Below, piece by piece: positions 11,645 to 26,126 of a DNA stretch of 64,000 nt. Position numbers and translations under genes: made by a program. Within the stretch, counting starts at the first letter, position 1; each line of letters opens with the position of its first letter. This stretch comes from Fidelibacterota bacterium (GTDB taxonomy: Bacteria; Pseudomonadota; Alphaproteobacteria; Rhodospirillales; Rhodospirillaceae): NCBI GenBank assembly GCA_947470105.1, contig CANISR010000001.1, forward strand, positions 1-64,000, in the 5' to 3' direction. Below the pieces are notes generated by a model. That model was not told the origin of the DNA. It was given only the letters and a program-made list of their open reading frames with translations, and searched no databases.

Positions 11645-12343
11645 TTAGGCGCTCAGTCTGTAACCACCAGGCTCGGTGATCAGCAGGCGCACCTGGGCGG
11701 GGTCGGCTTCGATCTTCTGGCGCAGGCGGTAGATGTGAGTCTCCAGCGTGTGCGTTGTGACGCCGGCGTTGTAGCCCCACACTTCGCCCAGCAGGGTTTC
11801 GCGCGACACCGTCTTGTTGCCGACGCGGTAGAGGTATTTGAGGATGGCGGCTTCTTTTTCCGTCAGGCGGATTTTGCGCTGGCCGTCGCCCTGCATGAGC
11901 ATCTTGGCCGCCGGCTGGAATTTGTAAGGCCCAATGGCGAAGATGGCGTCGTCAGACTGGTCGTGTTGGCGCAAGTGGGCGCGCACGCGGGCCAGCAGCA
12001 CCGCCATGCGGAACGGCTTGGTCACGTAGTCGTTGGCGCCGGCATTGAGGCCGGTGATGGTGTCGTCGTCGGAATCCGCCGCCGTCAGCATGATGATCGG
12101 CGAGCGCACGCCCTGGGCCCGCATCTGTTTGCAGACGTCGCGGCCGTCCATATCGGGCAGGCCGATATCCAGCAGAATGATGTCGAACACCTTGGCCTTC
12201 GACATGGACAAGGCCGACAGTCCGTCGCTGGCTTCCTCGATGACCTGGAACTCGCCCTGGGCCACCAATTGCTCGGCCAGCGCCCGGCGCAGGAGTTCGT
12301 CGTCGTCTACGATCAACAGAGTGCGGGTCGATGACACCGTCAT
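11645..12343 (-). CDS. cenR: OmpR-family response regulator, CenR-like
   Basis: The 232-residue regulator has an N-terminal receiver domain with the acidic pocket in IVDDDE, the phosphoacceptor Asp in IILLDIGLPDMDG, the Thr in IIMLTAAD and the Lys in YVTKPFR. A C-terminal OmpR winged helix ends with TTHTLETHIYRLRQKIE. The segments FRMAVLLARVRAHLRQHDQS and KYLYRVGNKTVSRETLLGEVWGYN closely resemble CenR, the essential alphaproteobacterial cell-envelope regulator paired with the kinase CenK. No kinase gene is adjacent. It is transcribed alone, convergent with the XRE gene. Confidence 0.8.
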   Translation of the reverse strand: MTVSSTRTLLIVDDDELLRRALAEQLVAQGEFQVIEEASDGLSALSMSKAKVFDIILLDIGLPDMDGRDVCKQMRAQGVRSPIIMLTAADSDDDTITGLNAGANDYVTKPFRMAVLLARVRAHLRQHDQSDDAIFAIGPYKFQPAAKMLMQGDGQRKIRLTEKEAAILKYLYRVGNKTVSRETLLGEVWGYNAGVTTHTLETHIYRLRQKIEADPAQVRLLITEPGGYRLSA

Positions 12344-16850: not shown

Positions 16851-17756
16851 CTAACCTTCGCCCTTGGTTTTGGTCTTGTTGGGCTTGGCGTTCTTTTCCA
16901 GGAATTCGATGATCTGGCCGGCGATGTCGATGCCCGTCGCTTTTTCGATGCCTTCGAGGCCGGGCGTCGAGTTGACCTCCATCACCACCGGACCGTGGTT
17001 GGAGCGCAGCATGTCTACGCCGCAAACATTGAGGCCCATGATCTTGGCCGCGCGGACCGCCGTGGAGCGTTCCTCGGGGGTGACCTTCACCTCAAGGGCC
17101 TTGCCGCCCCGGTGCAGGTTGGAGCGGAAGTCGTCCGGGGCGCCGGTACGCTGCATGGCCGCGATCACCCGGCCGCCGATGACAAAGGCGCGGATATCGC
17201 TGCCTTGGGCTTCCTTGATGAACTCCTGAACCAGGATGTTGGCTTCGACCCCGCCGAAGGCCTCGATCATGCTTTTGGCCGAGGAGCGGGTTTCGGCCAA
17301 CACCACGCCGATGCCCTGGGTGCCTTCCAGCAGCTTGATCACCACCGGGGTGCCGCCGACCATGTCGATCAGGTCATCGGCCTGGCTGGTGGCATGGGCG
17401 AAGGCGGTCACGGGCAGGCCGATGCCTTTGCGCGACAGCAACTGCAAGCAGCGGAGCTTGTCCCGCGAGCGGCCGATGGCAACGGACTCATTGAGAGGGT
17501 AGACGCCCATCATCTCGAACTGGCGTAAGACCGCCGAGCCGTAAAAGGTGATGGACGCACCGATACGCGGAATCACCGCATCGTAGCCCTCGAGGCTGCG
17601 GCCACGGTAGCGCACCTCGGGCCGGTGGGCGGCGATGTTCATGTAGCAGCGCAGGGTATCGATGACGTCGATGTCGTGGCCGCGCTCTTTGGCAGCCGCG
17701 ACGATGCGCATGTGGGAATAGAGACCGGCATTGCGCGCCAGCATCGCGAGCTTCAT
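16851..17756 (-). CDS. rimK: RimK family ATP-grasp alpha-L-glutamate ligase
   Basis: The 301-residue ligase shows the RimK layout: an N-terminal domain ([38 protein letters not shown]), then ATP-grasp motifs [54 protein letters not shown] and the metal site [15 protein letters not shown]. In Escherichia coli RimK adds glutamates to the C-terminus of ribosomal protein S6 and can make poly-alpha-glutamate. The retropepsin-like protease encoded 200 bases upstream is a known genomic partner of RimK ligases. The ATG at 17756 is followed by the expected MKxAML start; a TC-rich upstream stretch may hold its own promoter. Confidence 0.92.
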
Positions 17757-17956: not shown

Positions 17957-18517
17957 TCAGGTTACCTTGCGCGGGCGTTTCTTTTTCAGCCGTCCGGCGA
18001 CGAACGACCGGCTGGGGTCCACCACATATCTGCGCCGCACCGCCTGACGGCCGATGAGCATGCGGAATCCCATCTGGTCGCGGTTGGTGAGGGTCAGTTC
18101 CACCGGCCAAAGGTTTTTGCCCAGCTTGAGGGTGGTGCGGATGACATAGCGTTCCTCGGCCCGGCCGCCGGAGTCGGTAACGCAGCGGTAGTCGATCACC
18201 AGGGCGACGCAGGACACTTCGGGTTTCTTGCGCCGCTGCAAGGGATGCAGCACGAAACGAACATAAGCCGCGCCGTATTTGCTGAAGGGGGTAATGCGGA
18301 AGGCGTGCAGCGCCGAGGTGCGCGCGCCGGTGTCGATCTTGGCCTTGATGCGTTCGACGCCCAGATCCGGAAGCTTCACCCACTCGCGCCAGCCGATGAG
18401 TTTCTTTTTCTTCTCCGGCGGTAGCGGCGTGGCGTTTTCGATATCTGCGGCGATCTGGACTTCCGCCGCCGGGCGGCGTTTGGGCGTTGTCTTGGCTTTG
18501 CGTTTGACGGCCGCCAT
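17957..18517 (-). CDS. RimK-associated retropepsin-like protease (PF05618 type, RimB-like)
   Basis: The 186-residue frame from the ATG at 18517 has a basic, Pro/Lys-rich N-terminal 40 residues and then the family core: IGWREWVKLPDLGVERIKAKIDTGARTSALHA read in two parts, with the Asp-Thr-Gly-Ala motif of retropepsin-like aspartic proteases. FRMLIGRQAV follows near the C-terminus. Older annotation calls the family an ATP-dependent zinc protease; in Pseudomonas the RimB protein works with RimK. Its ATG overlaps the preceding porin's stop by one base (TGATG), so it is cotranscribed with the porin. rimK follows 200 bases on. Confidence 0.85.
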   Translation of the reverse strand: MAAVKRKAKTTPKRRPAAEVQIAADIENATPLPPEKKKKLIGWREWVKLPDLGVERIKAKIDTGARTSALHAFRITPFSKYGAAYVRFVLHPLQRRKKPEVSCVALVIDYRCVTDSGGRAEERYVIRTTLKLGKNLWPVELTLTNRDQMGFRMLIGRQAVRRRYVVDPSRSFVAGRLKKKRPRKVT

Positions 18518-19593
18518 CAGAAGCCGATCTTCAGCCCGCTGAGCACACCGCCGGAATCCCACGACGTGCCCACCACATCGCGTTGAGTGGCATAGAAGCC
18601 GCCGACGCCGACACTGATTCCGGGGCCGAGCTTATAAGCGCCCTGGAGCATGGCGCGGTCAACGCGCTCGCGCGCCGTGGTGAGCAGGCTGACGCGGCGG
18701 CTGGCGACGCGGTAGTCGGCGGAAATCTGGAACGGACCGATGCCGTAGAGGGCGCCCAGGGTCCAATCTTCTTCATTGAGCCCGTTCTGCGGCAGCACGC
18801 GCATATATGCGGCCCCCAGTTCCCAGCCGCCGTAAGTGGCGCCGGCCGACATGTTCCAGGCTTCGACGCCGTCTCTCACGATGGGGCCGAGACCCGGGGT
18901 GCGTGGCGCCAGATGGAAATAGCCCCCCGCCAGGCGGTAGGTGCCGCCGTCGAAGTCGCCCTCGTAGCCGGCGGTGAAATCAAACGCGTTGTGCGGCCCG
19001 AGGCGCCCGTCGATGGGCCCCACGGCCGGTGTCGGCGTCGGGTGATAGGCGACGCCGACCTTAATGCCGAACAGCTCGGGGCTTTGATAGGACACGCCGA
19101 GGGCGTTGCCGGTGAAGCGTTTGAAGGTGAAGGCGTCGCGCAGCGTAATGGCGGTGCGCGCCTTGACGCCGTCGCCGATGATCTCGTCATCGACCGTGAG
19201 GAATGCTTGCGGGATCGGATCGCCGATGGTGGAGGCGTTGATGCCGGCCTTCTCGCCGATGCGCACGCGGCCGAAGGTGGTGACCACGTCGATATAGGCT
19301 TCGTCCACATCGACGTTCTCGCGACCGACGGCGAAGACGCGGATATAGCTGCGGATGCTGATGCCGTTGTCGAGGGCGGTCTTGCCTTCCGCCGACAGAC
19401 GGACATCGTTGAACATGGAGGCGGCGCCCAGATCTTCGCCGGGCGCCTGGTCCTGATCGGCGACGGTGAAGAATTCCTTGATGCGCCCGCCAAGGGTCAG
19501 GGTGATGGCGTCGGCGGCCAGCACGGTGCCGGGATAAAACGCGACCGCGCCGAGGAGGACGCCGCGCACGATTTGTTTCGGGAAAAGGGCCAT
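18517..19593 (-). CDS. Gram-negative porin
   Basis: The ATG at 19593 gives 358 residues with a signal peptide (MALFPKQIVRGVLLGAVAFY, cleavage near GTVLAADA). The first mature strand, ITLTLGGRIKEFFTVADQDQ, and the final VLSGLKIGF with terminal phenylalanine are typical of trimeric porins in alpha- and betaproteobacteria. Alternating strand patterns and glycine/aromatic ends run throughout. The stop overlaps the protease start. The OprP-like porin gene ends 78 bases upstream with no visible terminator, so read-through from that promoter is possible. Confidence 0.85.
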   Translation of the reverse strand: MALFPKQIVRGVLLGAVAFYPGTVLAADAITLTLGGRIKEFFTVADQDQAPGEDLGAASMFNDVRLSAEGKTALDNGISIRSYIRVFAVGRENVDVDEAYIDVVTTFGRVRIGEKAGINASTIGDPIPQAFLTVDDEIIGDGVKARTAITLRDAFTFKRFTGNALGVSYQSPELFGIKVGVAYHPTPTPAVGPIDGRLGPHNAFDFTAGYEGDFDGGTYRLAGGYFHLAPRTPGLGPIVRDGVEAWNMSAGATYGGWELGAAYMRVLPQNGLNEEDWTLGALYGIGPFQISADYRVASRRVSLLTTARERVDRAMLQGAYKLGPGISVGVGGFYATQRDVVGTSWDSGGVLSGLKIGF

Positions 19594-19671
19594 GAATCCG
19601 TCACCAACCAACCGGCGACACCTTATGCCAACGGGGCGATTTGGCAAACCGGGTAGCTGGAGGGACGAGGC

Positions 19672-21201
19672 CTAGAACATCACCTGCCAGCGGACCGCGA
19701 GCGCGTCGATGTCGAGGCTGGCGCTGACGCCGGGGCCGCCACCTACGCGCGGGTTCGCTTTATGCAGGTTGGTGTGGATGTAGTTCAGCTTCCACAGCAT
19801 GTTCGAATTCCAATACCAGTTGATGCCCGCAGTCACAGCCGCCTGGCGGCCGCCGTTGACAGCCAACGGCTGCACGGCCGTGGGGATGCTGCTGTTGTAC
19901 TGGTCGGTGAGGTCGATCCGACTGTAGCGCAGGGCGAACTCTACGGCGCCCTGTCCGCCCTTGAGCGGGCTGAACGGCGTGGTCGGATTGACGCCGCTGT
20001 AACAGCCGCAGGTGACGGTGTAATTGTGCTTACCGCCGAGTGTATAGGTGAGTTGCGCATACGCGCCGTCGAACTTGGCCGAGGTGCGGCCCAGACGGTG
20101 CACGTCGTAGCGATAGTATTCACCTTGATAGAAGAACTGATCGAAGGTGCCGGCCACTTCCGCGCCGTAGATCGTCGCCTTGTCCACCGGATTGGCCACG
20201 GTGCCCAAAGCGCCGGTGGTGATGGTGGGCGTCGGATCGATACGCAGCTCAGCCTGGTTGGAGATCGTGATGGACTCCGCCGTATTGGCGCCGGAGTTGG
20301 GCGCGCGCAACAGTTGGTCGACGCCGGCGCCCACATGCAGCGTGGTGTCGCTGGTCTGAATGATCTGATAGGTGCCGCGCGCGTAGGCGCCGAGGGTGCG
20401 CTGAGTCAGCGCGTGGGCGTCGCCGGGCTTTGAGCCAGTGAGGTAAGCGCCGAACCACCAGTTGGGGCCCCAGGTGCGGAAGCCGAGATTGGCGCGCGGA
20501 TCGCCGACGTTGATGTTGGCGATGACCGCGGTCGGTGTCGCGCGCTCGAGGAAAATAATGTCGTTGGAGCTGGTGGCCTCATCCAGCGTGAATTGCGACG
20601 GCATGTAGCCGACTTCGATGATGGTGTTCGCGATGCCCGTGTAGCCGATGCTGGCGGTGTTCAGCAGCGTCGCGTTGTCGGTGGAACCGCCGGCGTCGAT
20701 GATGAGCGAGTAGGTAAAGTCGCTCATGGCCTTGCCGGTGACGCCGAGGCGGCCGCGGCGGACATTGAGCCCGCTGGTGAGGCGGCCGCCGGCATCGGTG
20801 CCGAGACCGGTGGTGCTCTGGGCTTTTTGATTCAGGTACCCGCCGATATCGAAGTGGATGCGGCCGGTGGGGGCGATGGTCCAGGCGCCGTCGGCGCTCG
20901 ACAAGGTGAAGCGGTGGGTGGCGGACTCGGTGACCTTGGGAACCGCCGGCGGAGCGGCGTTGGCGATAGCGTTGGTGGAGGCGATGCGCTCCTTGGCTTC
21001 CCGGGCGACGGCGTAGCGGGTGCTGTCGTTGGCGGCCTTCAGGGCGTCGAGCTGTTGCTGCAGGGTCTTCAACTGCTGCTGCAGCAACTCGATCTCCCGC
21101 GCCATGGTGGCGGCGTCGGCGGCTTGGGCCGGAGAAGACACAAGCGGCGCCATCGCAGTGGTGGCCAGGAGCATTGCCGTGATGAAACGCAGCTTTTTCA
21201 T
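19672..21201 (-). CDS. OprO/OprP-like porin, probably phosphate-selective
   Basis: The 509-residue outer-membrane protein has a signal peptide (residues 1-27, ending SPAQAADA), a periplasmic coiled coil at about residues 33-55 rich in Leu and Gln (ELLQQQLKTLQQQLDALK), and a long beta-barrel that ends in RWQVMF. The coiled coil before a barrel with DFTYSLIIDAG and EVGYMPSQFTLDEATSSNDI is typical of the OprP/OprO family, which in Pseudomonas takes up phosphate or polyphosphate. It faces pstS, and three 11-bp Pho-box-like repeats lie 127-155 bases upstream. The ATG at 21201 follows a longer open frame whose first 81 residues are not signal-like. Confidence 0.85.
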   Translation of the reverse strand: MKKLRFITAMLLATTAMAPLVSSPAQAADAATMAREIELLQQQLKTLQQQLDALKAANDSTRYAVAREAKERIASTNAIANAAPPAVPKVTESATHRFTLSSADGAWTIAPTGRIHFDIGGYLNQKAQSTTGLGTDAGGRLTSGLNVRRGRLGVTGKAMSDFTYSLIIDAGGSTDNATLLNTASIGYTGIANTIIEVGYMPSQFTLDEATSSNDIIFLERATPTAVIANINVGDPRANLGFRTWGPNWWFGAYLTGSKPGDAHALTQRTLGAYARGTYQIIQTSDTTLHVGAGVDQLLRAPNSGANTAESITISNQAELRIDPTPTITTGALGTVANPVDKATIYGAEVAGTFDQFFYQGEYYRYDVHRLGRTSAKFDGAYAQLTYTLGGKHNYTVTCGCYSGVNPTTPFSPLKGGQGAVEFALRYSRIDLTDQYNSSIPTAVQPLAVNGGRQAAVTAGINWYWNSNMLWKLNYIHTNLHKANPRVGGGPGVSASLDIDALAVRWQVMF

Positions 21202-21327
21202 GTCTTTGTCCTTGGTTCTCAATGTCTTACGCCGACAATTTCGCGTCGGTGCCAGGCCACTCGCAGCTCCGGACGCACACCTCAAGCACCGCGAGACGGG
21301 CCGCAAGGAGTGATATCGCGGGTTCTG

Positions 21328-21356
21328 GTGACAGAGCGATGACGGTTTTGTGAAAC
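21328..21356 (-). promoter_or_regulatory. Pho box-like array upstream of the OprP-like porin gene
   Basis: On the minus strand three elements occur with exact 11-bp spacing: GTTTCAC (21356-21350), CCGTCAT (21345-21339) and CTGTCAC (21334-21328). The PhoB consensus is two or more CTGTCAT-type heptamers at 11-bp intervals. The array ends about 127 bases before the porin ATG. Confidence 0.65.
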
Positions 21357-21485
21357 AGCGGCGTGCCGGTTGTCGTGCAGGCCGGAAGATGCGCTGTCCG
21401 GGCCAGTCCGGCCATTCGGTCGGACGGCGTAGGCGATTGGGCAAAGGGGGTAGTCCCCGGAGGACCGCACCGGCTTGAGGCCAGA

Positions 21486-21513
21486 CGTCACATATCTATC
21501 ATAAATCCGTAAC
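21486..21513 (+). promoter_or_regulatory. Pho box-like array upstream of pstS
   Basis: Three TCAC/TCAT/TAAC elements start at 21488, 21499 and 21510, exactly 11 bp apart and separated by A/T-rich spacers. The array ends 79 bases before the pstS start codon. It fits PhoB activation of pstSCAB under phosphate limitation, the usual control of this operon. Confidence 0.65.
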
Positions 21514-21592
21514 ACTAGAGTCGCGGCTGGTTCTTAGCATCGCCCCTGTCAGGAGTCCGGACGTTCCGGCATCCGCAATTCAGGAGGCGAAC

Positions 21593-22651
21593 GTGTACCA
21601 ATTCACAAAGAAGATCGCACAAGCGGCCATGACAATGGCGGCTGTCGCGACTCTTTCTACCGCGGCCATGGCTGCCGACATCTCCGGCGCGGGCGCGACC
21701 TTTCCGTATCCGATCTACGCCAAGTGGGCGGACGCTTATAAAAAGGAAACCGGCGTCGGCCTGAACTACCAGTCCATCGGCTCCGGCGGCGGCATCAAGC
21801 AGATCACCGCCAAGACCGTGACCTTCGGCGCCAGCGATCAACCGCTGAAGCCCGAAGACCTGGACAAGAACGGCCTCATCCAGTTTCCCATGGTCATGGG
21901 CGGCGTTGTGCCGGTGGCCAACATCAAGGGCGTGAAGCCCGGCGAGCTGAAGCTCGACGGCGCGACCCTGGCCGACATTTATATGGGCAAGATCAGCAAG
22001 TGGAACGACGCGGCGATCCAGAAGCTCAATCCGGATGTGAAGCTGCCGTCCACCGCCATCGCCGCTGTCTACCGCTCCGACGGTTCGGGCACCAACTTCC
22101 TGTTCACCACCTATCTTTCGCAGGTGAGCCCGGCCTTCAAGGAAAACATCGGCGCCGCCACCTCCGTCGAATGGCCCTCGGGCATCGGCGCCAAGGGCAA
22201 TGAAGGTGTCGCCGGCATGACCACCCAGACCGACGGCGCCATCGGCTATGTGGAATACGCCTTCGCCAAGCAGAACAAGATGACCTACCTCAACCTGATC
22301 AATAAGGACGGCAAGGTGGTCGAGCCCAAGAGCACCTCGTTCCAGGCGGCCGCCGCCGGCGCCGACTGGGCCAATGCCAAGGGCTATTACCTCGTGCTCA
22401 CCAACCAGAGCGGCGCGGACAGCTGGCCCATCACCGGCGCGTCCTTCATCCTGATCCACAGGCAGCCGCAGAACCCGGCCGCGGTGCAGGATGCCCTCAA
22501 GTTCTTCGCCTGGGCCTACAAGGGCGGGGCCAAGATGGCCGATGAACTCGATTACGTGCCCATGCCCGGCAGCGTCGTCTCCCTGGTCGAAAAGACCTGG
22601 GGCGAAATCAAAGGCGCCGACGGCAAAGCTGTGTGGATGGCTGCCAAATAG
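21593..22651 (+). CDS. pstS: phosphate ABC transporter substrate-binding protein PstS
   Basis: PstS captures inorganic phosphate in the periplasm and passes it to PstCA. The 352-residue protein starts with GTG, eight bases after a strong AGGAGG site. Its signal peptide ends near STAAMAAD. Phosphate-site motifs are [32 protein letters not shown] and [10 protein letters not shown]. Length is typical. A hairpin separates it from pstC, probably giving more pstS than pstCAB message. Confidence 0.96.
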
Positions 22652-22744: not shown

Positions 22745-23731
22745 ATGTCCCAGCAAGCCGAATCCATGGCGCTCTCCGCCGAGATCCAGCAGCGCATTCA
22801 GCGCCAGCGGATGTTGGACCGGGCCTTCCGCGCCGTGACCATGTTCTTCGCGCTGCTGGTTCTGGTGATCCTGGGCGCGATCATCATTTCTCTGGTGGAA
22901 GGTTCCTTGCCGGCGCTCAAGAAGTTCGGCTGGAACTTCCTGACTACCGAACGCTGGAATCCGGTAACCGAGGTTTTCGGCGCGCGCGCGCCGATCTACG
23001 GCACACTCATGACCTCCGCGATCGCCATGATCGTCGGCATCCCAGTGAGCTTCGGTATCGCCATTTTCCTCACCGAGCTGGCGCCTGAGTGGCTGAAGCG
23101 TCCCATGGGCACGGCCATCGAATTGCTCGCCGGCATCCCCAGCATAATCTACGGCATCTGGGGTCTGTTCGTGTTCGCGCCGTTCCTGCAGCGTAACATC
23201 CAGCCGTTGCTGATCGCGGTCTTTGAGGACGTGCCCGTCCTCAATACTTTTTTCGCCGGCCCGCCTTACGGCATCGGCATTCTTACCGCCGGGCTGATCC
23301 TCGGCATCATGGTGCTGCCGTTCATCACGTCGGTCACCCGCGATGTGTTCGAGACGGTACCGGCGCTGCTGAAAGAATCCGCCTACGGCCTCGGCGCCAC
23401 CACCTGGGAAGTGGTGTGGCAGATCGTCATCCCCTACACCCGCGTCGGCCTGGTAGGCGGCATTATGCTGGGCCTGGGCCGCGCCCTGGGCGAAACCATG
23501 GCGGTCACTTTCGTCATCGGCAACGCCCACCGCATCAGCCCGTCGATCCTGGCGCCCGGCACCACCATCTCGGCGTCCATCGCCAATGAATTCACCGAAG
23601 CCGTCGGCGACATTTACACCAGCGCCCTGGTGGCCCTGGGCCTGTTGCTGTTCGTGATCACCTTCACCGTATTGGCCATGGCCAAGATCATGTTGATCCG
23701 CATGCAGCGCAACGCGGGGACGCGCACATGA
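22745..23731 (+). CDS. pstC: phosphate ABC transporter permease PstC
   Basis: PstC is one of the two inner-membrane subunits of the phosphate importer. The 328 residues contain about six membrane helices after a cytoplasmic N-terminus of some 30 residues. The permease coupling motif is visible in [22 protein letters not shown], with [18 protein letters not shown] typical of PstC/PstA. The ATG at 22745 follows the pstS hairpin by 38 bases. The stop overlaps the pstA start by four bases. Confidence 0.95.
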
Positions 23732-24570
23732 CCCTGTACGAACGCCGCAAGATGAAGAACCGCATCGCCCTGGCGGCATCGGGCGTGGCCGCGCTCATCG
23801 GCCTGTTCTGGCTGGTGGCGATCCTCGGCACCCTGCTTGTCAACGGCGTGAGCGCCTTGAGCCTGACTCTGTTCACCGAGAGCACACCGGCGCCGGGCAA
23901 CGCCGGCGGATTGATCAACGCCATCTTCGGCAGCGCCGTCATGAGCCTGTTCGGCATTCTCATCGGTACGCCCGTGGGCATTCTCGCCGGCACTTACCTC
24001 GCGGAATACGGCAAGAGCAATCCGCTCGCCTCCGTCGTCCGCTTCATCAACGATATTCTGCTGAGCGCGCCGTCCATTATCATCGGCCTGTTTGTCTATG
24101 AACTGATGGTGGTGCCCATGGGCCACTTCTCCGCCTGGGCCGGGACCGTAGCGCTATCGCTGATCGTCATCCCGGTGGTGTTGCGCACCACCGAGGACAT
24201 GCTGAACCTGGTACCCGACTCTTTGCGCGAAGCCGCCGCCGGATTGGGCGCTCCCAAGTGGCAGGTCGTGAGCCACGTGGTTTACCGCGCGGCGCGCAGC
24301 GGCATCGTCACCGGCATTCTGTTGTCCGTCGCCCGCGTCAGCGGCGAAACCGCTCCCTTGTTGTTCACCGCGCTCAACAATCAGTTCTGGAGCACGGACA
24401 TGAATGCGCCCATGGCTAATTTGCCCGTGGTGATCTTCCAATTCGCCCTGAGCCCTTATGAAGATTGGCGCAATCTGGCCTGGGCCGGGGCGCTGCTGAT
24501 TACGGTTACAATTCTTGTTCTCAACATTGCCGCCCGTCTCTTGACGGCGCGGCCCTCCGCCCGGCAGTGA
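23728..24570 (+). CDS. pstA: phosphate ABC transporter permease PstA
   Basis: The 280-residue partner of PstC has about six membrane helices. Family landmarks are [33 protein letters not shown] and the coupling loop [20 protein letters not shown], with [16 protein letters not shown]. The ATG overlaps the pstC stop (ATGA), and pstB starts two bases after its stop, so translation of pstC, pstA and pstB is coupled. Confidence 0.95.
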
Positions 24571-24572
24571 GC

Positions 24573-25421
24573 ATGAGTATGGAACGTCCCTCCGAAGCGC
24601 CCCGGCCCGCGACCGCTTTTCGCGGCATTTCCATCGGCAGCCCGCGGTCCACGGACCCGGCGACGCTGGTGGAGAAGATCGGCATCAAGAACCTCGAGTT
24701 CTTCTACGGCAGCCACAAGACGCTCAAGGACATCTCGCTCTCCATCTATGACCGCCGCGTCACCGCCTTCATCGGCCCCTCGGGGTGCGGCAAGTCCACG
24801 CTGCTCCGCGTACTCAACCGCATGTACGACCTCTATCCCGGCCAGCGTGCCGTGGGCTCGGTGCTGCTGGACGGCCAGGACATCCTGTCGCCCAAGCAGG
24901 ACATCAACCTTCTGCGGGCGCGCATCGGCATGGTGTTCCAGCGCCCGACGCCGTTCCCCATGTCGATCTTCGACAATGTGGCATTCGGCCTGCGCCTTTA
25001 TGAGCGCCTGGCCCAGGCCGACATCGAGGCCCGCGTCGAGGAAGCTTTGCGCGGCGCGGCGTTGTGGAACGAAGTGAAGGACAAGTTGGGCCAGAGCGGT
25101 CTATCGCTCTCGGGCGGTCAGCAGCAGCGCCTGTGTATCGCCCGCGCCATCGCCGTGCGGCCAAGTGTTTTGCTGCTCGACGAACCGGCCTCAGCGCTCG
25201 ATCCGATCTCTACGGCCAAGATCGAGGAGCTGATCGACACCTTGCAGTCCCAGTACACCATCGCCATCGTCACCCATAATATGCAGCAGGCCGCCCGCGT
25301 CTCGGACTTCACCGCCTTCCTGCTCATGGGCGAACTGGTGGAATTCAGCCGCACCGAGGACATCTTCACCAAACCCTCGGACCCGCGCACCGAAGCCTAT
25401 GTCACCGGCCGGTTTGGCTGA
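24573..25421 (+). CDS. pstB: phosphate ABC transporter ATP-binding protein PstB
   Basis: PstB is the ATPase of the phosphate importer. From the ATG at 24573 the product has 282 residues; an ATG at 24579 is an alternative. It has Walker [18 protein letters not shown], the Q-loop in [12 protein letters not shown] (the Pro-rich form typical of PstB), signature [14 protein letters not shown], Walker [13 protein letters not shown] and the switch His in VTHNMQQA. The first 40 residues are a Pro/Arg-rich extension. The usual downstream phoU and phoB genes are absent; a DUF3576 lipoprotein follows. Confidence 0.96.
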
Positions 25422-25598
25422 GCCGGGGAACCTTCGAACCTGACGCCGGCCTCACGGCAAAAACCCCTTTTCCCCTTAGGGTTAGCCAGGGTCGCGCCGG
25501 GCCTTCGCAAGACCCTTCCAGTTGGCTATAAACGCCCCCACGTTCGCGGCGGGGCTTCAGTCCCGGTGCGCGCCGGACCTCGTGTGGAGCGGATAACA

Positions 25599-26126
25599 AT
25601 GTCGGCTAAAGCCTTAGTATCGTTGAAGTTTGTGGCTTTTGCCGCGACCGCGGCCCTGTTGGTGGGCTGCGGCTCCGGCCGCATGCAGACCGCCCCTTCG
25701 GGCGGGCGGGACCGCGATGCGGCGCCCAGCGACGGCGTTTTCTCCAGCGGCGGCGGCGGCAATGCCCTGTTCGGCGCGAAGAAAGACGGTGAAGCGGTCT
25801 CCATCAACGCCTTCCTGTGGCGCGCCTCCCTGGACACCATCGCCTTCATGCCCCTGGCGTCGGCCGATCCGTTCGGCGGCGTCATCCTGACCGACTGGTA
25901 TGCGCCCCCCGAGACGCCGGACGAGCGCTTCAAGGTCAATGTCTACATTCTCTCCCGCGTGCTGCGCGCCGACGGCCTCAAGATCACCGTCTTCCGCCAG
26001 CAGCGCGACGCCAGCGGCCAGTGGCGCGACACCACCGTTGGCCCGGAAGTCTCCACGGAATTCGAGAACGCGGTCCTGACCCGCGCCCGCGACCTTCGAC
26101 TTAGGGCCGTGCCGGAAAATAATTAG
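25599..26126 (+). CDS. DUF3576 domain-containing lipoprotein
   Basis: From the ATG at 25599 the product has 175 residues. A short signal (MSAKALVSLKFVAFAATAAL) ends in LLVGC, a lipobox at Cys24, followed by a Gly/Arg/Asp-rich linker. The DUF3576 core shows INAFLWRASLDTIAFMPLAS, DPFGGVILTDWY and FKVNVYILSRVLRADGLKI. Function is unknown; it is almost always found directly before leuS-lptE-holA in alphaproteobacteria, and since LptE assembles lipopolysaccharide an envelope role is plausible. It has a GGAG site about nine bases before the start. The 177 bases after pstB hold no evident terminator. Confidence 0.85.
   Translation: MSAKALVSLKFVAFAATAALLVGCGSGRMQTAPSGGRDRDAAPSDGVFSSGGGGNALFGAKKDGEAVSINAFLWRASLDTIAFMPLASADPFGGVILTDWYAPPETPDERFKVNVYILSRVLRADGLKITVFRQQRDASGQWRDTTVGPEVSTEFENAVLTRARDLRLRAVPENN

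Follow-up and report, generated by a model that had tools for sequence, protein, structure and literature searches.

It is highly probable that the spacer between an outer-membrane porin gene and pstS in this alphaproteobacterium holds two PhoB-dependent promoters, and that an imported pstSCAB operon of the Escherichia coli type has replaced the native pst genes of the lineage while the native pst promoter was kept in front of phoU-phoB. The basic prediction within this reading, that both the porin and pstSCAB are under PhoB control, is well supported. The analysis covered a window of 64,000 nucleotides (the whole stretch of DNA that was analysed), the remainder of its genome, and genomes of the same genus and family; the two arrays, the gene identities, the synteny, the restriction to a single clade and the retained promoter were read directly from these sequences. 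Coordinates are given in Table 1.

Table 1. Features of the porin/pstS region, numbered by position in the window.
Feature	Position	Strand	Remarks
rimK	16851-17756		next after the RimB-like gene
RimB-like retropepsin / Zn_protease-family gene	17957-18562	-	Pfam match over cut-off; overlaps the second porin gene at its end
Second porin (Porin_4)	18517-19647	-	24 bp behind the first porin
OprP/OprO-family porin (PF07396), 509 aa	19672-21201	-	161.7 bits, cut-off 20.9
Alternative porin -10-like element TATCAC (possible)	21310-21315	-	13-18 nt past the array
Porin-promoter Pho-box array	21328-21356	-	three 7+4 repeats, GTTTCAC AAAA CCGTCAT CGCT CTGTCAC
pstS-promoter Pho-box array	21485-21513	+	ACGTCAC ATAT CTATCAT AAAT CCGTAAC
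Possible fourth, degenerate repeat GAGTCGC	21518-21524	+	in register with the pstS array
Putative pstS -10 TAGCAT	21535-21540	+	22-27 nt past the array
pstS, E. coli-type phosphate-binding protein	21593-22651	+	434 bits, cut-off 339
pstC, short form, 328 aa	22745-23731	+	TIGR02138, 316 bits, cut-off 196
pstA	23728-24570	+	TIGR00974, 285 bits, cut-off 193
pstB	24564-25421	+	TIGR00972, 377 bits, cut-off 343
DUF3576 gene	25566-26126	+	adjoins the porin in relatives lacking this pst
leuS	begins 26218		after the DUF3576 gene

Both arrays are built of direct 11-bp repeats, a heptamer plus four nucleotides, oriented towards the gene they precede, and so have the architecture of Pho boxes, which a review describes as 11-nucleotide direct repeats with seven well conserved and four less conserved positions and with CTGTCAT as the E. 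coli heptamer (PMC4415409). On the minus strand GTTTCAC (21356-21350), CCGTCAT (21345-21339) and CTGTCAC (21334-21328) start exactly 11 bp apart, as the original prediction had stated. On the plus strand ACGTCAC, CTATCAT and CCGTAAC start at 21485, 21496 and 21507, again in 11-bp steps; the TCAC, TCAT and TAAC noticed earlier at 21488, 21499 and 21510 correspond to the final four letters of each full heptamer. The orientation claimed for each array, towards its own gene, also agrees with the porin start codon at 21201 and the PstS GTG at 21593.

Both strands of the window were scored for three-repeat sites, first with a weight model of the CTGTCAT type, under which the porin and pstS arrays took ranks 1 and 2 (25.8 and 25.5 bits) and the best other site reached 13.7 bits. 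A second model was trained on 23 sites (11 porin and 12 native pst promoters) from genomes outside the window's clade, sites which had themselves been chosen by the CTGTCAT-type weights. It placed the porin array first (34.8 bits), two registers of the single pstS array second and third (23.0 bits, for the register 21496-21524, and 22.5 bits) and the next-best site at 11.75 bits, to be compared with a Markov null of window length in which the best score of 60 trials had a mean of 11.7, an SD of 2.7 and a maximum of 23.0. By its letters alone, the porin array is far beyond chance. The pstS array reaches the edge of the null by the same measure, and its case is carried by position and conservation: it was kept in all three genus genomes that have this pstSCAB, and among them strong conservation of the pstS-side promoter extends from the array through GGTTCTTAGCAT, which is identical in all three, and does not include the middle of the spacer.

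The porin promoters, the native pst promoters and the pst promoter of the window share a -10-like hexamer 22-28 nt beyond the third repeat, a gap that gives space for a fourth, degenerate repeat; in E. coli pstS the -10 lies nearer to the third repeat. At the place used by its relatives for the porin -10, the window reads TTGCGG (21301-21306): a TA stands at nucleotides 22-24 after the array in 15 of 16 porin promoters, the window's being the exception, so the porin promoter here may be weak or may use a shifted -10. The absence of this TA could mean that the porin array is becoming a relic, the Pho control of the porin having weakened so that mainly pstSCAB responds. We regard such decay as unlikely, since the array itself is the best pattern match of the whole genome, both sister genomes retain the array together with a TA-containing -10, and TATCAC, one helical turn nearer, could serve as the -10.

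That genome-wide ranking comes from a search of the whole genome (3.86 Mb) with a general Pho-box pattern, allowing up to two mismatches, which returned seven places versus two with the reversed control. They were the porin array (the sole match with one mismatch), the pstS array, the promoter array of phoU-phoB in two registers, and three others. The search recovered both arrays and the phoU-phoB promoter, together with those three unexplained places, on contigs C212, C231 and C264. Judged by eye, the reading frames close to these three look aldolase-like, TonB-receptor-like and amidase-like, with no phosphate gene among them, and we take the three places to be at chance level. Rfam gave nothing in the window at gathering thresholds.

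The porin is the only PF07396 match in its own genome, and at E <= 0.001 a profile of its genus orthologues found no PDB relatives other than OprP and OprO (OprP 2o4v, E 2.6e-18). Similarity to these Pseudomonas aeruginosa proteins is nevertheless weak overall, and it fails at a position of functional interest: OprP Lys121, a central phosphate ligand, aligns in an ungapped stretch with Glu208, and OprP Lys126 aligns with Asn213. By contrast, OprP Arg133, the central arginine, is matched by Arg220. Because of the change at Lys121 we file the protein under the Porin_O_P family and not as a phosphate-selective OprP, so that its earlier description as OprP-like is upheld as regards family membership, phosphate selectivity being no more than putative. 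A structure predicted from three sequences had a mean pLDDT of 29.1, too low for use on the trimeric 16-strand barrel fold. Given the 24 bp between the two porin genes and the overlap of the second with the RimB-like gene, the porin transcript may span more than one gene. Fourteen relatives have the porin-DUF3576 arrangement, and in 12 of them the Porin_4 gene adjoins the porin; the two exceptions lie at contig edges. The RimB-like protein scored 135.5 bits with the RimB NCBIfam model, under its cut-off of 200.

Elsewhere in the genus, distant Porin_O_P paralogues (30-32% identical) stand beside the sulfate permease gene CysT in three genomes, G001, G012 and G014 (L121:265-2775, L122:1306-3832 and L116:160-2952), a hint of a wider association between this porin family and ABC transporters for oxyanions. 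G001 also has its porin directly behind a second pstS, of the TIGR02136 type (L220:5862-8549), with about five 11-bp repeats upstream, a porin-pstS linkage that apparently arose independently.

The original prediction had joined the two arrays and their genes into a single phosphate-starvation unit. Pho-type arrays do indeed precede both the porin and pstSCAB, but the unit appears to be a recent assembly. An array precedes the porin in 16 of the 17 genus genomes with a readable orthologous locus; 14 genomes reach at least 19.0 bits, G015 and G018 score 42.8 and 41.2 under the trained model, to which neither had contributed a site, and the array of G013 is poor (11.2). The porin has been relocated in G001, and G014 has only a distant paralogue. 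Where this pstSCAB is lacking, the porin faces DUF3576-leuS in 14 of 16 genus genomes. On this comparative evidence the porin-side array is older than its pst neighbour, and the two halves of the spacer differ in history, the pst half having apparently been imported. Joint arrival of the porin box with pst was considered and is ruled out, as relatives without this pst carry the porin box.

The transporter genes are the complete phosphate ABC transporter that had been predicted, all four subunits exceeding their NCBIfam cut-offs in one gene run; for PstC and PstA the models passed were TIGR02138 and TIGR00974 and not the more narrowly drawn PRK ones, and among solved structures the PstS has its close relatives in E. 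coli-type PstS proteins. This PstS occurs in three of 19 genus genomes (the window's, G004 and G008), all of one clade, and in each of them pstSCAB stands between the porin and DUF3576. Outside the genus, it was detected in two of 41 family genomes, one match being strong (G036, 64% identity) and one marginal (E 4.5e-5). We scored the upstream DNA of 49 of 80 pstS loci for arrays, most Mesorhizobium loci and loci with little upstream DNA having been omitted, and 31 of the 49 reached at least 17 bits, L020 and L021 among them, which belong to the window's clade and are counted as the records of G008 and G004 and not as additional genomes. Without that clade the figure is 29 of 47 loci of this type, versus two of 245 shuffles, and the incoming operon therefore probably brought its own box. 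With the window porin alone as the tblastn query, a search that distant porins would escape, no match of more than 60 residues at E <= 1e-3 was found near other such pst loci (L022-L099, 78 loci). The proteins of L021 are 78-92% identical to those of the window.

The native transporter of the genus is of a different kind, with a long PstC of 877 aa in place of the 328 aa in the window. Native PstC is present in 15 of the 19 genus genomes and, beyond the genus, in 10 of 54 family genomes, from four other genera; in the genus it is absent from the three genomes of the window's clade and from one genome that is 76% complete. In 14 of the 15 native-pst genomes phoB lies just past pstB, with or without phoU between them; G014, whose contig stops at pstB, is the remaining one. 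Nine relatives, G014 among them, have a fragment extending as far as rpe, and there the pst genes begin beside rpe and occupy the interval between rpe and phoB. The three clade genomes show instead the order tkt-rpe-phoU-phoB-apt on single contigs, and a gap in a draft genome is thereby ruled out as the cause of the missing genes, rpe and phoU being on one contig in all three.

What was left between rpe and phoU includes a strong array, scoring 28.2 bits in the genome of the window, 25.4 in G004 and 24.5 in G008, and behind it the -10 region with the motif of the native pst promoters. Over the 30 nt after this array, the phoU-upstream region has a mean identity of 74% to the 12 native pst promoters, against 32% to 16 porin promoters. 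A Pho-box array also precedes native pstS in all 14 genomes, of the 15 with the native transporter, whose promoter was readable. Judged by this resemblance, the native pst promoter has outlived its operon and now precedes phoU-phoB. Two further observations concern the native locus. In six genus genomes (L182, L183, L184, L185, L187 and L192) phoU was undetected between pstB and phoB, whose matches are 38-61 bp apart, and each of these genomes has a phoU-family gene elsewhere, a partial one in G005. In G006 a second, more diverged pst-phoU-phoB copy (L188, PhoB 66%) exists besides the native copy, with a weaker array (21.0 under the CTGTCAT-type model and 13.1 under the trained model).

A genus tree from pieces of PhoB, Apt, Rpe, LeuS and DUF3576, rooted at its midpoint and with two rows under half filled, united the three clade genomes at 100/100, and a single change of Pst type suffices on it. 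In a quick PstB tree, which carried long-branch warnings, the three formed a group at 100 and joined the alphaproteobacterial MAGs L026 and L030 at 87, with native PstB in a separate group at 99; the upstream arrays of L030 and L026 score 24.2 and 16.8. Twenty of 23 Mesorhizobium loci, two short rows and the partial native PstB of G005 had been left out of that tree, seven loci gave no PstB row, and L031 was a frame-broken outlier. The same distribution might have arisen by differential loss, from an ancestor that carried the two pst types side by side in its genome, with the E. coli-type genes at the porin locus; all lineages but one would then have lost the E. coli-type genes, and that one the native genes. 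The difference in neighbourhood gives by itself no direction, the genus tree is rooted only by midpoint, and G036, with its similar PstS, belongs to another genus of the family. Yet no genome of the 19 has both Pst types, and the E. coli-type PstS is sparse, with strong matches in one of the 41 genomes beyond the genus, set against the four outside genera with native PstC; we consider differential loss improbable, and favour replacement by an incoming operon.

The regulators lie away from the spacer. PhoB is present on contig C180, adjoining phoU, with 338 bits against a curated NCBIfam cut-off of 296, and it alone passes that cut-off among the 12 places in the genome with near-full-length matches to the PhoB profile. 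A full-length OmpR-family response regulator in the window itself (11651-12328, minus strand) scores 149 bits to the PhoB profile, below the cut-off. OmpR-family regulators other than PhoB can also bind direct repeats, and the 11 further profile matches leave room for one of them to bind these arrays in place of PhoB, but we think this very improbable in view of the like arrays before phoU-phoB here, before the native pst genes of relatives and at so many non-clade pstS loci. PhoB thus remains the favoured regulator. Its presumed partner, a PhoR-like kinase at C1:72040-73074, about 8 kb beyond the window end on the same contig, scores 307 bits and stays below the curated PhoR cut-off of 334. 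Only one of 14 control genomes passes the model and none of the 19 genus genomes does, while 18 of the 19 have a match at E <= 1e-60. The window's genome also has a second phoU (L221:7157-7903), beside genes that look by eye like queC and queE, and no phosphate transporter was recognised close to it.

We propose that the spacer (21202-21592) would act as a pair of promoters of a classical Pho regulon: the first would drive the porin, perhaps together with Porin_4 and the RimB-like gene in its transcription unit, and the other would drive pstSCAB. When phosphate is short, PhoB in its phosphorylated form would occupy the 11-bp repeats of each array head to tail and bring RNA polymerase to a -10 about 22-28 nt downstream, and phosphate uptake across the outer and inner membranes would rise together. 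In one lineage, an E. coli-type pstSCAB, probably accompanied by its own array, would have been inserted between the porin and DUF3576 and would have replaced the long-type pst once present between rpe and phoU, whose Pho-box promoter was kept and now stands directly before phoU-phoB. The new Pst would presumably signal through the retained PhoU/PhoB and the PhoR-like kinase. PhoB binding, induction, the import and this signalling are what we infer from the comparisons. We see roughly even odds that the exchange was a transplant in the strict sense, in which the E. coli-type Pst took over flux sensing from a native Pst of quite another kind while the resident PhoU, PhoR-like kinase, PhoB and native promoter, now an autoregulatory phoU-phoB promoter, were kept.

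The E. coli Pho regulon offers the same repeat unit, spacing, orientation, position upstream of pstS and type of PstS, and differs from the present case in that here phoU is outside the pst operon, the porin is divergent from pstS and the -10-like element is farther from the third repeat. In Xanthomonas oryzae, an OprO-PhoX-PstSCAB-PhoU cluster was up-regulated together in pathogenicity-activated cells, which is not a phosphate test (PMC8220824). An OprO porin gene is likewise clustered there with pst genes, but as described it is one cluster including phoX and phoU, whereas here the two units are divergent, each has an array of its own, and phoU-phoB is elsewhere. That pst genes pass between lineages also has precedents, in the pst islands exchanged among marine alphaproteobacteria (HIMB59), as outlined in PMC10734472, and in the transfer of pst operons in Firmicutes, as cited in PMC5439949. 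The HIMB59 islands, as they are outlined there, include phoU and keep to one genomic position; in our case the transporter genes alone arrived at a new site, and the regulators and the old promoter were kept. Among the best-ranked literature matches, at the level of titles and the openings of abstracts and with subscription journals mostly uncovered, none reported a pst exchange under retained PhoU/PhoB. With Pho boxes and porin-pst clusters known already, it is the clean transporter swap that is of interest: the regulatory reading is right and ordinary, and the unit is a recent assembly that came about by transporter replacement, apparently once.

The swap raises the question of why an incoming phosphate operon settled beside a gene of the Pho type. 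It also provides a before-and-after comparison, 15 relatives with the native transporter versus three in which it was exchanged and the old promoter was left before phoU-phoB. PhoU-like families are reported in PMC13170248 to be paired with cognate transporter families, and the families compared there are PhoU, PitR and an NptA-linked clade; these are distinct regulator families, and the comparison therefore bears on the present swap by analogy only. Should the incoming PstB prove to work with the resident PhoU, then the contact between Pst and PhoU would be more interchangeable than that pairing might suggest. The exchange thus opens the way to asking which components of phosphate sensing are bound to co-evolve and which ones tolerate being swapped.
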